Of a stretch of DNA of 64,000 nt, positions 15,654 through 62,712 are shown one piece after another. The translations under genes and the position numbers were made by a program. Position 1 is the stretch's first letter. Each line of letters starts with the position of its first letter. The notes below the pieces were generated by a model. That model made no database searches. It was given only the letters and a program-made list of their open reading frames with translations, and was not told the DNA's origin. The DNA is from Actinomycetota bacterium (GTDB lineage Bacteria; Actinomycetota; Actinomycetes; Actinomycetales; Microbacteriaceae): the NCBI GenBank assembly GCA_020161315.1, contig JAIUOH010000002.1:1-64000 (forward strand), in the 5' to 3' direction.

Positions 15654-15700
<47 letters not shown>

Positions 15701-15712
15701 CCGCGGCGTATG

Positions 15713-15801
15713 CGTAACAGCGGACGGCGCACGTAACAGCGGATCACGCACGTAACAGCGGATGAAACCGCGAAACCCATCCGCTGTTACGTGCGTGATC
15801 C
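15713..15801. repeat. Palindromic element I: 19-bp period direct repeats plus inverted copy
   Basis: CGTAACAGCGGA occurs at 15713, 15732 and 15751 (period 19), and its reverse complement at 15780-15791, leaving a 17-nt centre. With flanks, 15741-15764 and 15778-15801 form a perfect 24-bp inverted repeat. Confidence 0.92.
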
Positions 15802-15822
15802 GGCCGAACGAACGTGGTAGGC

Positions 15823-15864
15823 GGGTCTGGGTCTGGGTCTGGGTTTGGGTCTGGGTCTGGGTCT
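15823..15864. repeat. Hexanucleotide tandem repeat (GGGTCT)7
   Basis: Seven GGGTCT units, the fourth being GGGTTT. This is a second, different hexamer tract on the other side of palindromic element I. The intergenic region 15529-15918 (390 bp) holds only the terminator, these tracts and the palindrome. Confidence 0.93.
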
Positions 15865-15905
15865 GGGCTGTGAGCCCTGGGCCAGGGCTGAGGAGCGCGA
15901 CGCAG

Positions 15906-40855: not shown

Positions 40856-41488
40856 CTAGCTCGCGCGCACGGCCTCGATCACATGAAAACCCTTGTCGCG
40901 CGCGACCCGGCTTACCTCAAGCTCTGCAAACTCGGTGGCGATCCAACGCTGCAAAGAGTCTGCGCCGAGGTGCTTTGCAACCACGAGGTAGGCCTCACCG
41001 CCAACAGCAAGGCGGGGCAACCAGAGCTGCAGCATCTCGTGCAGTGCCTGCTTGCCGACGCGAATCGGCGGGTTCGAGTGGAGCGCGCCAAAACTGAGCT
41101 CAGACGGCACCTCATCGGGGGCGGCCACTCGCACATTCGTGAGTCCGAGGCGCTCTGCGTTCATGCGGGTGAGCTCGCGTGAGCGCTCGTTCACGTCGAC
41201 GGCCCACACTTCGCGCTGAGGGTGTGTAAGCGCAGCAGAGAGCGCGATCGGCCCCCAACCGCAGCCAAGGTCGAGCACGGGGCCGAGAGCATCACCGTCA
41301 TCGGCGGTGATGCCGTCACCGACCTCTGCGATGGTGCGCAACAGAATCTCGGTGCCACGGTCGAGATGCTCCGGACTGAACACGCCGCCAGCGGTGAGCA
41401 CTCGGTGGGGTGCGCCCGCGAGCGTCACCTCAATCTCGCGCGGGGTAAATTCGCCCGACGGGGCCTCGCTGAAGTAGTGCTCGCTCAC
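40856..41488 (-). CDS. Class I SAM-dependent methyltransferase (RsmC-like small-domain type)
   Basis: 210 residues, Rossmann methyltransferase of the MTS family. SAM-binding motif I is VLDLGCGWGPIALSAA (about 70-85); the catalytic NPP motif occurs in LHSNPPIRVGK (about 134-144), typical of guanine or adenine N-methyltransferases such as RsmC/RlmG acting on rRNA. The N-terminal SEHYFSEAPSG and RVLTAGGVFSPEHLDRGTEI segments match the single-domain RsmC-like proteins of Gram-positives. The precise rRNA position is not deducible. Confidence 0.82.
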   Translation of the reverse strand: MSEHYFSEAPSGEFTPREIEVTLAGAPHRVLTAGGVFSPEHLDRGTEILLRTIAEVGDGITADDGDALGPVLDLGCGWGPIALSAALTHPQREVWAVDVNERSRELTRMNAERLGLTNVRVAAPDEVPSELSFGALHSNPPIRVGKQALHEMLQLWLPRLAVGGEAYLVVAKHLGADSLQRWIATEFAELEVSRVARDKGFHVIEAVRAS

Positions 41489-41580
41489 CTCACAAGTATC
41501 TCAGTCCCGATGTGCTTGAGCGCACCTGTATGCAGCGTGGGTGTGTTGGTTGTGTTGGTGTGCGCGGGTGGGTGCACTGT

Positions 41581-41645
41581 GTGCGAGATATGCACTGCGT
41601 GCGAAGATTTCCGAGTTTTTCTCGCACGCAATGCATATCTCGCAC
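41581..41645. repeat. Palindromic element III upstream of the DUF559 gene
   Basis: Arms 41581-41604 and 41622-41645 are 24-nt reverse complements with one mismatch, around a 17-nt centre. Each arm contains two GTGCGA/TCGCAC motifs 18 bp apart. The rest of the 294-bp gap (41489-41782) holds nothing else I can identify. Confidence 0.88.
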
Positions 41646-41782
41646 GCAAGTTACAGCCGCCCGCACTGCGAACCCCACTCCGAATGCCGCATCTGTTCGG
41701 CTTCCGGACTTGTTGCTCACAGCCAGGCGTGCTTCTGACTTACTCACAGACTTCTGCTGTTTTGGGGAGATGGAGCTTTCGA

Positions 41783-42622
41783 GTGTCTCCTATCACGCAA
41801 GATGGGGTCATGCTCAACCCGCTCACAGCTCAAGGCGTCGCCCGAACCTCGGCTCTGCTCAAGCAAGGCATGAGCAGAAACATGATCGCGGTCGAGGTTG
41901 ACAGGGGCACCCTTATCCGCCCGCGAAAGGGATGGGTCGCAAGGCCCACTGCCGATGAGGCGCTGATCTATGCTGCCCGCCACGGAGTGCTGCTCACCTG
42001 CATTACGCAAGCGAAGCGTATGGGCATATGGGTGCAGAGTGAACGCGAGCACCATTTCGCCACCCGTGCCGCAAGCTCAAGAGGTCGCCCCGGCGGGGTG
42101 CTGCATTGGCGCACCCCGCTCGTGCCGCGCGACCCAGATTCGCTCGAAGATCCCCTCGAAAACGTGCTCAATGCAGTCGCGCACTGTCAACCATTTGAAG
42201 AAGCGGTCGCGATCTGGGACTCAGCTCTTAACAAGGGACTCGTCGAATGGCAGCGGCTCTCAAGGCTGCCATTGACTGGGCTCGCAAAACAGGTGCTTCT
42301 GGCGAGCAATCGATTCGCTGATTCGGGTCTTGAAAGCTATGTGCGTACCAGGCTGGCCTGGCTCAAGCTACGAATCGTGGCTCAGGCCTGGGCGCATGGC
42401 CATCGCGTTGACTTTCTCATCGGAGAACGGCTCGTGCTGCAGGTCGACGGGAGTCAGCACACCGGTGCGCAGCGCAGCAGTGACAACCAGCACGATGCGG
42501 AGCTCGGGCTGCTCGGCTACGAGGTGATACGGGTGACTTACACCCAGGTCATGTTCGACTGGCCAGCAGTGCAGCAAAGGATTATGCAGGCGATTGCGCA
42601 GGGCAAACATCGTGCCACTTGA
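41783..42622 (+). CDS. AbiEi-like winged-helix plus DUF559 nuclease-fold protein
   Basis: 279 residues from GTG 41783, which has GGAG 7 nt upstream (ATG 41810 is the alternative). The N-terminal part (about 10-80: LTAQGVARTSALLKQGMSRN, GTLIRPRKGWVARP) resembles the AbiEi antitoxin-type winged helix. The C-terminal part (about 190-265) is DUF559, related to Vsr and PD-(D/E)XK endonucleases: GHRVDFLIGERLVLQVDGSQH, then DAELGLLGYEVIRVTYTQV. The acidic and histidine residues of the fold are retained, so activity is plausible. No partner gene is adjacent. It lies alone between two related hairpin elements, suggesting a mobile or selfish cassette. Function unknown. Confidence 0.72.
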   Translation: MSPITQDGVMLNPLTAQGVARTSALLKQGMSRNMIAVEVDRGTLIRPRKGWVARPTADEALIYAARHGVLLTCITQAKRMGIWVQSEREHHFATRAASSRGRPGGVLHWRTPLVPRDPDSLEDPLENVLNAVAHCQPFEEAVAIWDSALNKGLVEWQRLSRLPLTGLAKQVLLASNRFADSGLESYVRTRLAWLKLRIVAQAWAHGHRVDFLIGERLVLQVDGSQHTGAQRSSDNQHDAELGLLGYEVIRVTYTQVMFDWPAVQQRIMQAIAQGKHRAT

Positions 42623-42651
42623 GACGCGGACCCTACTGCGCGTGTGTCGCC

Positions 42652-42751
42652 TGCGAGACAGCCATCGCTTACGAGACCTGCCTTGCGTGCGAGATATGCG
42701 GTATGTGCGAGATTTTGGCTGGATTTTTCGCACGCTGCGCATATCTCGCAC
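42652..42751. repeat. Palindromic element IV downstream of the DUF559 gene
   Basis: Arms 42687-42710 and 42728-42751 (24 nt, four mismatches) flank a 17-nt centre; both share the GTGCGAGATATGC start and GCATATCTCGCAC end of element III. Additional TGCGAGAC and TACGAGAC units at 42652 and 42670 continue the 18-bp phase to the left. Confidence 0.85.
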
Positions 42752-42841
42752 GTACTGCATTGCAAAAGACAGGGTCGCCCCGCATGAACGCGCGGTGCTG
42801 CGCTGTAGGTGAACAGGCTGTTGGCCGAGGGCGCAGCAATC

Positions 42842-42847: not shown

Positions 42848-42857
42848 TGTGAGCAGA

Positions 42858-44435
42858 ATGACGATGCAGCACGACGAAACCGCGCAAGAGATGAACTCCG
42901 AGGCGTTTGCCCCGGGCGACGCAGGCAGCAGCGAGGCTGGTGACGCGCTCGACCGGGTGCTCGAGCGCGCCTCAAGGAGTCGTACCGCGACGGTGATTCG
43001 AGACTTGAGCGGAGCCCAGGCCCTCGGTGACGAGTCGCACGAGTTCGCAGCGGGCAATGTCGACGCGATCAGGCTCGAGCGCGAGGAGCGCGCGTCACTG
43101 AAGCGTGTTGCGGGCCTCTCGACCGAGCTCGAAGACGTGACCGAGGTCGAGTACCGCCAGCTGCGCCTCGAGAAGGTTGTCTTGATCGGCGTGTACTCGC
43201 AGAGCACCAAGCAGGGCACAGAAGACGCTGAGAACTCGATGCGCGAGCTCGCGGCACTCGCCGAGACCGCGGGTGCCGAGGTGCTAGACGGCCTGCTGCA
43301 GAGGCGCGCTAACCCCGACAAGGCGACCTACCTCGGCAAGGGCAAGGCACAAGAGCTCGCAGAGCTCGTCGCCGCAGTCGGCGCCGACACCGTGGTCGCC
43401 GACACCGAGCTTGCGCCGAGCCAGCGTAGAGCTCTTGAAGACGTGGTGAAGGTCAAAGTGATCGATCGCACCGCGGTTATTCTCGACATCTTCAGCCAGC
43501 ACGCCAAGAGCCGCGAGGGTAAGGCTCAGGTCGAGCTCGCGCAGCTGCAGTACCTGCTGCCGAGGCTTCGTGGCTGGGGTGACTCGATGTCGCGCCAGGC
43601 TGGTGGCCAGGTGGGTGCTGGCGGTGCAGGCATGGGCTCGCGCGGCCCCGGTGAGACGAAGATCGAACTCGATCGCCGTCGCATCAACACGCGCATGGCA
43701 AAGCTGCGCCAGCAGATCAAGGGTTTTGCGCCCGCCCGTGAGGCGAAGCGTGCCAATCGCAAGCGCGGCGAGGTGCCCGGGGTCGCAATTGCCGGCTACA
43801 CGAACGCTGGCAAATCGAGCCTCTTGAACAGGCTCACTGGCGCCGAGGCGCTCGTGCAGAACCAGCTGTTTGCCACCCTCGACACGACCGTGCGCCACGC
43901 CGAGACCGCAGACGGCCGCACCTTCACCTACGCAGACACGGTTGGTTTTGTTCGCAACCTGCCGCACCAGCTCGTCGAGGCGTTTCGCTCGACGTTCGAA
44001 GAGGTCGCGGGTTCAGACGTGATTGTGCACGTGGTCGACGGCTCGCACCCCGAACCCGCGGCTCAGCTGCGCACCGTGCGCGACGTGATCGCCGAGGTCG
44101 ACGCGCAGGCCCTGCCCGAGATCGTGGTCTTCAACAAGAGTGACCTGATCGATGAGACACAGCGCCTCGTGTTGCACGGTATGGCACCCGATGCGGTGTT
44201 CGTGTCGGCTCGCACCGGCGAGGGCATTGAAGAGCTCAAAACGAGGATCGCAGCGGCGCTGCCCACCCCAGACGTCGAGGTGACCGTCACGGTTCCTTAC
44301 GATCGTGGCGACCTGGTCGCCGAACTGCACGAGCGCAACCGTGTGCTCGGCACCGAATACGTCGAAGAGGGCACTCGTGTGCACGCATTTGTGGGCGGCG
44401 AGACGCTCGCAAAGCTTGAACCGTTTCTTGTCTAG
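42858..44435 (+). CDS. hflX: Ribosome-associated GTPase HflX
   Basis: GTPase that splits stalled or hibernating ribosomes under stress. 525 residues from ATG 42858. An acidic N-terminal extension of about 100 residues precedes the HflX domain (VVADTELAPSQRRALEDVVK, RTAVILDIFSQHAKSREGKAQ). The glycine-rich linker QAGGQVGAGGAGMGSRGPGET follows, then the G domain: G1 GYTNAGKSS, G3 DTVGF and G4 NKSD. A C-terminal domain completes it. The usual hfq partner of enterobacteria is absent, as in Actinobacteria generally. The stop codon overlaps the hairpin TAGTGTG-TCTT-CACACTA. Confidence 0.93.
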   Translation: MTMQHDETAQEMNSEAFAPGDAGSSEAGDALDRVLERASRSRTATVIRDLSGAQALGDESHEFAAGNVDAIRLEREERASLKRVAGLSTELEDVTEVEYRQLRLEKVVLIGVYSQSTKQGTEDAENSMRELAALAETAGAEVLDGLLQRRANPDKATYLGKGKAQELAELVAAVGADTVVADTELAPSQRRALEDVVKVKVIDRTAVILDIFSQHAKSREGKAQVELAQLQYLLPRLRGWGDSMSRQAGGQVGAGGAGMGSRGPGETKIELDRRRINTRMAKLRQQIKGFAPAREAKRANRKRGEVPGVAIAGYTNAGKSSLLNRLTGAEALVQNQLFATLDTTVRHAETADGRTFTYADTVGFVRNLPHQLVEAFRSTFEEVAGSDVIVHVVDGSHPEPAAQLRTVRDVIAEVDAQALPEIVVFNKSDLIDETQRLVLHGMAPDAVFVSARTGEGIEELKTRIAAALPTPDVEVTVTVPYDRGDLVAELHERNRVLGTEYVEEGTRVHAFVGGETLAKLEPFLV

Positions 44436-62614: not shown

Positions 62615-62712
62615 CGAACTCGGTGCCTTTTACCGAACTCGGTGCCTTTTGCCGAACTCGGTGCGATTCACCTGCATAAAGCGGCCGAGTTCGGTAAACG
62701 GCACCGAGTTTG
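62615..62712. repeat. Palindromic element II: 19-bp period direct repeats plus inverted copies
   Basis: CGAACTCGGTGC occurs at 62615, 62634 and 62653 (period 19). After a 17-nt centre, inverted copies lie at 62682 (9/12 matches) and 62701 (11/12). Arms 62617-62642 and 62685-62710 are complementary at 25 of 26 positions. It follows the glycosylase stop and could also end its transcript. Confidence 0.9.

Follow-up and report, generated by a model that had tools for sequence, protein, structure and literature searches.

The described systems closest to the locus reported here are those of the REP/REPIN-RAYT (TnpA-REP) type, in which repeated extragenic palindromes (REPs) accompany an HUH tyrosine transposase, the REP-associated tyrosine transposase or RAYT; the features used for comparison are those given in portions of PMC3116915, PMC3733652 and PMC8266576. 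The EDxHD homing endonuclease I-Bth0305I is described, in an excerpt of PMC3943268, as dimerising on a target of nearly 60 bp, and known AbiEi antitoxins of type IV toxin-antitoxin systems bind paired 23-bp inverted repeats according to extracts of PMC7319586. The DNA analysed here is a stretch of 64,000 nucleotides, called the window (GCA_020161315.1, contig JAIUOH010000002.1, positions 1 to 64,000), from a Leucobacter-like bacterium. It contains a single gene (41810-42622) for a protein with an AbiEi-like part and a Vsr/EDxHD (DUF559) nuclease part, bracketed by two imperfect palindromes (41581-41645 and 42687-42751). This confirms an earlier, sequence-only reading of the window, which had noted two hairpin elements around a lone nuclease-like gene.

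The locus and its homologues resemble REP/REPIN-RAYT systems, as portrayed in the cited portions, in several ways. Distinct nuclease genes are flanked by palindromes dispersed in intergenic DNA, each gene has its own palindrome class, several different genes can occur in one genome, the gene is mostly found at its ancestral site and plasmid and phage records are few. They differ in that the protein joins an AbiEi-like part to a Vsr/EDxHD nuclease whereas RAYT is an HUH tyrosine transposase, in that the palindromes, of 65-85 bp, have four half-sites 18/19 bp apart and carry no GTAG tag (in families A and B, defined below), and in that 6 to 20 places were counted per genome, in an actinobacterial host. 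EDxHD homing endonucleases share the nuclease domain, but here there is no intron or intein, the gene stands between two whole palindromes and does not split its target, and the palindromes are multicopy. Unlike AbiEi antitoxins, the protein is fused to a nuclease domain, has no adjacent toxin partner and has sites upstream, downstream and elsewhere in the genome. Unlike the Vsr very-short-patch-repair endonuclease, it has an additional DNA-binding part and palindromes, and the adjoining methyltransferase gives a match to the MTS family and not to a DNA cytosine methyltransferase.

In the open-access literature, which leaves subscription journals mostly uncovered, we found no description of DUF559/AbiEi nucleases joined with dispersed palindromes. 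Because the RAYT enzyme differs, the homing endonuclease layout differs and no such description was found, we class the system as new by its machinery; its REP-RAYT-like way of life has a precedent. We observe paired private palindromes, dispersal linked to the gene, a shared geometry, three states of one site and, in the closest relative examined, a unit placed elsewhere. The locus is probably part of a two-component, self-spreading gene-and-repeat system, in which the protein would act in trans on its own palindromes and both gene and palindromes would spread.

Paired palindromes in homologous loci

The upstream palindrome (element III; 41575-41651 in its wider limits, without strand) defines what we call family A; each of its arms contains two GTGCGAGA-like half-sites at a spacing of 18 bp, and its centre is AT-rich. 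The downstream palindrome (element IV; 42680-42758, also without strand) belongs to the same family. Between them, on the + strand, the gene encodes 270 aa from an ATG start; an 87% identical relative (L001) has an in-frame stop two codons ahead of the equivalent ATG.

The 450 bp upstream of each homologous gene were scored against the 450 bp downstream, with a score of at least 25 counted as matching. Flanks matched in 58 of 89 homologous loci. Among 73 control genes (hflX, argF and pnp, frequently with coding DNA in the flanks) a single one had matching flanks. The median score of the homologous loci was 30 against 15 at most in 10,000 permutations. Matching pairs were found in 32/54 loci from the genus and Microbacterium, 21/27 from other genera of the family and 5/8 from other families of the order. 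A profile search of 150 genomes contributed up to 30 of the 89 loci, the best from each genome, so that the sample is biased towards close homologues; it excludes L006 (a duplicate of L001), the broken or partial L056, L057 and L059, L066 (no hit) and L188 (fragment), as well as five places from a search of 60 relatives. The RAYT-like arrangement of a cognate nuclease gene flanked by matching palindromes therefore has its counterpart at the window locus and at these 58 loci. The palindrome sequence varies from locus to locus, and similar palindromes go mostly with protein pairs whose identity exceeds about 55%.

Dispersal of private palindromes

With element III as a BLAST query (E<=1e-3), the family A palindrome was found at 7 places in its own genome (G000), 5 of them besides the flanking pair, and at 13 places in the closest relative examined (G007), where 2 flank the G007 gene. 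The remaining 34 of 36 genomes gave no match at this threshold. G000 has a second gene of the family (contig C50, 12023-12805), 53% identical to the window gene and with a different palindrome of its own, family B. This occurs at 19 places in G000 (17 besides the flanking pair), including window positions 15740-15802, and at none in the 35 other genomes. The extragenic palindromes are thus repeated, as in REP-RAYT systems, at 7 and 19 places in their own genome.

Two further palindromes behaved similarly. That of locus L191, from another genus, was present at 20 places in G147 (18 besides the pair) and at 9 in G065, whose gene is 81% identical, with a single short match in G186, where the gene is 60% identical, and no match in five further genomes. 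That of L020 was present at 6 places in G021, with one 30-bp match among 11 other genomes. The sequence-only reading had named hairpins spread genome-wide independently of such genes as an observation that would speak against it; strong copies of all four palindromes were instead confined to genomes carrying either the cognate gene itself or a gene that is 81% or more identical to it. Overlaps with crudely called genes occur at L116, L119 and L125; otherwise the 34 solo places read are all extragenic. Their neighbours are convergent in 9 cases, tandem in 13, divergent in 4 and unclear in 8, orientations which also rest on these crude calls.

States of the gene and palindrome sites

The left neighbour of the unit is a methyltransferase (MTS domain) gene (40856-41488, - strand) and the right neighbour is hflX (42849-44435, + strand), both host genes outside it. 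The methyltransferase gene is beside hflX in 25 of the 30 hflX loci read, and the nuclease gene is absent from the 29 loci other than that of the window; the gap is therefore not always filled, and it is constant filling that would have counted against mobility. Three states are found. The gap is empty in the 12 relatives in which it was measured (36-138 bp in 11 and 382 bp in one, all without such a palindrome; six further hflX gaps were read by eye), contains a single family A palindrome in G007 (197 bp) and contains palindrome, gene and palindrome in the window (1361 bp).

In G007 an 87% identical gene and its palindromes are situated between argF and argH. The gene is absent from 23 other argF loci, in 20 of which argH is directly beside argF. 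In G000 itself (L151, contig C45), argF is adjoined by epimerase-family and TetR-family genes and not by argH, a local rearrangement compared to the 20 relatives; the half-site is absent from the argF-epimerase stretch. The site of the second gene is empty in G010 (43 bp vs 1457 bp), and one solo palindrome site is empty in G007 (36 vs 208 bp). Two family A sites besides hflX are common to G000 and G007, with the palindrome present in both. Among the G007 solo sites, only that at hflX has a counterpart in the window. The pnp-gene loci checked for an empty version of the solo site in the window gave no match in G007.

These states could also arise if the whole unit moved, by means of the window-type protein or another enzyme, and the solo palindromes were scars of recombination between flanking copies, comparable to solo long terminal repeats. 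The solo copy in the G007 hflX gap, where the window has the full unit, and the different positions of the unit in G000 and G007 agree with such a scenario. It is nonetheless rather improbable in view of the number of solo copies, which far exceeds that of genes (17 besides the pair in family B and 18 in G147), and of two close L191-palindrome copies at L239, the single case examined, between which no gene remnant was found. It shares most of its steps with the explanation we favour. At the same place in G147 (L239, 1689-1748) a different hairpin lies between the two copies and is perhaps a further family.

Geometry of arms and centre

Protein and palindrome likeness, arm offsets and centre motifs were analysed in the 58 loci chosen for matching flanks. 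The best direct-repeat offset within the arms was 18 or 19 bp in 37 of them (36 with a slightly different filter), against a mean of 4.1 and a maximum of 9 in 300 trials with arms shuffled so as to retain symmetry. The same offset was found in 18/19 copies of family A and 19/19 of family B. The centres share motifs such as GAATC/GATTC, present in 19 of 94 against 2.5 in shuffles. L064 and pieces of weak symmetry are excluded from this count, in which the upstream and downstream centres from a given locus are not independent of each other. Variable arms combined with a retained layout and a partly retained centre are what would be predicted for a single protein fold that reads different arms but acts at an unchanging centre. 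Consensus sequences built from 18 copies of family A and 19 of family B contain no GTAG tag.

The palindromes form stable hairpins and are intergenic, and the sequence-only reading had considered a gene insulated by two terminators. That they are ordinary terminators or RNA elements which flank the gene by chance is, however, extremely improbable: neither is followed by a run of T on the + strand, no Rfam family was matched at gathering score (five weak microRNA-model matches fell far below), and the sequence is private to each gene with matching upstream and downstream copies. Two terminator-like sites do occur nearby (41519-41547 and 41695-41709; 1.1 expected by chance), in a scan which allows loops of 3-8 only and could not have flagged these long-loop palindromes.

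The protein and its distribution

The N-terminal stretch of the gene (41810-42310, + strand) gives a weak Pfam AbiEi_4 match (E 0.099). Profile and fold comparison assign the C-terminal stretch (42317-42607, + strand) to the I-Bth0305I/Vsr type, within the nuclease family of the EDxHD homing endonucleases. E175, D201 and D225 are identical in all 32 members compared. As proposed earlier, the protein is unrelated to the RAYT enzyme: it has no Pfam match to an IS200/IS605-like HUH tyrosine transposase up to E 1. RAYT or HUH structures were also absent from the 50 matches listed in a VIA-align structure comparison, which in itself excludes nothing.

The family is present in 43 of 60 relatives and, by profile, in 105 of 150 genomes of the bacterial family, covering 63 of 85 genera. 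Matches were found in 2 of 72,556 plasmid records and 1 of 50,697 phage records, all below 31% identity.

A phage-defence cassette had been another early suggestion, and an anti-phage or toxin cassette of the AbiE type, insulated by hairpins, could account for the AbiEi matches obtained with the PADLOC defence library. These are weak (E 0.013-0.033) and were accompanied solely by one weak homing-endonuclease match, no AbiEii nucleotidyltransferase toxin gene lies beside the window gene, both of whose neighbours are the host genes named above, and a cassette of this kind leaves the dispersed palindromes unexplained. We consider it very unlikely.

Other palindromes and repeats in the window

The solo family B palindrome (15715-15810, without strand) lies between a polyribonucleotide nucleotidyltransferase gene and an M16 peptidase gene, and is part of another system of the same kind as the family A unit. 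A short AT-rich inverted repeat adjoining one solo family B palindrome (L235, 3546-3570) was not seen in the equivalent G007 gap. A palindrome of a third sequence (62616-62711, without strand), with three direct GAACTCGGTGCC-like copies 19 bp apart and one inverted copy, has the geometry of families A and B and lies between a formamidopyrimidine-DNA glycosylase gene and a YceI gene.

Short tandem repeats (period <=12, Tandem Repeats Finder score >=40) adjoin several palindromes, at 15654-15699 and 15823-15867 in the window and at L035, L116 and L141. They occupy 256 of the 6659 non-coding bases that lie no more than 150 bp from a palindrome versus 0 of 17048 other non-coding bases of the same loci, figures based on few arrays and crude gene calls. 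They could be scars of break repair.

Discussion

The first interpretation of this locus is supported in part: its reading as a mobile unit with a layout recalling REP-RAYT cassettes is supported by dispersed private copies, empty sites, a solo site and a gene elsewhere in G007, its other options are not supported, and action of the protein on the palindrome is a supposition. In the explanation we favour, the AbiEi-like part would read both arms of the 65-85-bp palindrome, through two half-sites 18/19 bp apart in each, and the nuclease part would be positioned over the more constant centre. The occurrence of a fusion of AbiEi and I-Bth0305I-type folds with a palindrome of this length suggests two protein copies, one per arm, that place the nuclease over the centre. 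Cuts at the palindrome centres would free a half-palindrome, the gene and a half-palindrome. Rejoining of left arm to right arm as the gene leaves would yield a solo palindrome, entry of the freed piece into another cut palindrome, or copying of the gene by repair into a cut solo palindrome, would restore the palindrome-gene-palindrome arrangement, and palindromes would seed new intergenic sites. Such a cut-and-rejoin model, every enzymatic step of which is putative, would explain why the hflX gap is found in three states and why the genes have a whole palindrome on either side.

Several observations weigh against this explanation. No matching pair was detected at 31 of the 89 loci at the cut-off used, and the correlation between palindrome and protein likeness is weak (Mantel r 0.10, p 0.036). 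Inspection of three sites by eye revealed no target-site duplication, the relatives being so diverged there that boundaries could not be placed. Movement of the gene seems to be rare, because outer flanks are alike in 4 of 5 protein pairs at least 80% identical among the 58 loci. The structure model is of moderate confidence only (pLDDT 67.7, pTM 0.46). Covariation between arms was not above shuffles (paired cells 517 vs 523 for family A and 577 vs 599 for family B), so compensatory changes as proof of hairpin upkeep were rejected; for the same reason a target of four sites in double-stranded DNA is at least as good a fit as an extruded hairpin. Finally, glutamine stands in place of glutamate in 28 of 32 members, and cleavage may therefore be altered or lost.

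This substitution is in keeping with the main rival, an AbiEi-like self-regulating repressor with a small regulon. In that case the palindromes would serve as operators, and the nuclease domain would have degenerated or have nothing to do with them. The promoters of AbiEi antitoxins carry paired inverted repeats to which the antitoxins themselves bind (extracts of PMC7319586), and an upstream palindrome is found about 130-290 bp ahead of many genes of the family. Simple autoregulation nevertheless has no place for a matching downstream palindrome, the 34 solo copies lie between gene pairs of every orientation called, the palindromes are private to one genome or a close pair, and the three acidic residues are invariant; a regulator with dispersed operators is accordingly unlikely.

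More tentatively, the favoured self-spreading system might represent a mobile class unrelated to RAYTs, in which a single palindrome is at once an operator, a target for cleavage, the end of the element and its landing site. The nuclease would dimerise via its AbiEi-like domains and cut the centre, and gene and palindromes would circulate by half-palindrome exchange. Specificity would shift fast, the pair at the locus and the dispersed copies changing together as the protein diverges, and the Microbacteriaceae would thus hold many natural long-site nucleases of differing specificity.

Dispersed palindromes with a dedicated enzyme are described, in the literature covered, only for HUH transposases. 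If the explanation we favour is true, a second, unrelated enzyme class occupies the same layout and this way of life arose more than once. It would also supply a cause for palindromic repeats in actinobacteria, and would provide long DNA sites naturally paired with their cognate nucleases, a setting for direct tests of how specificity evolves.
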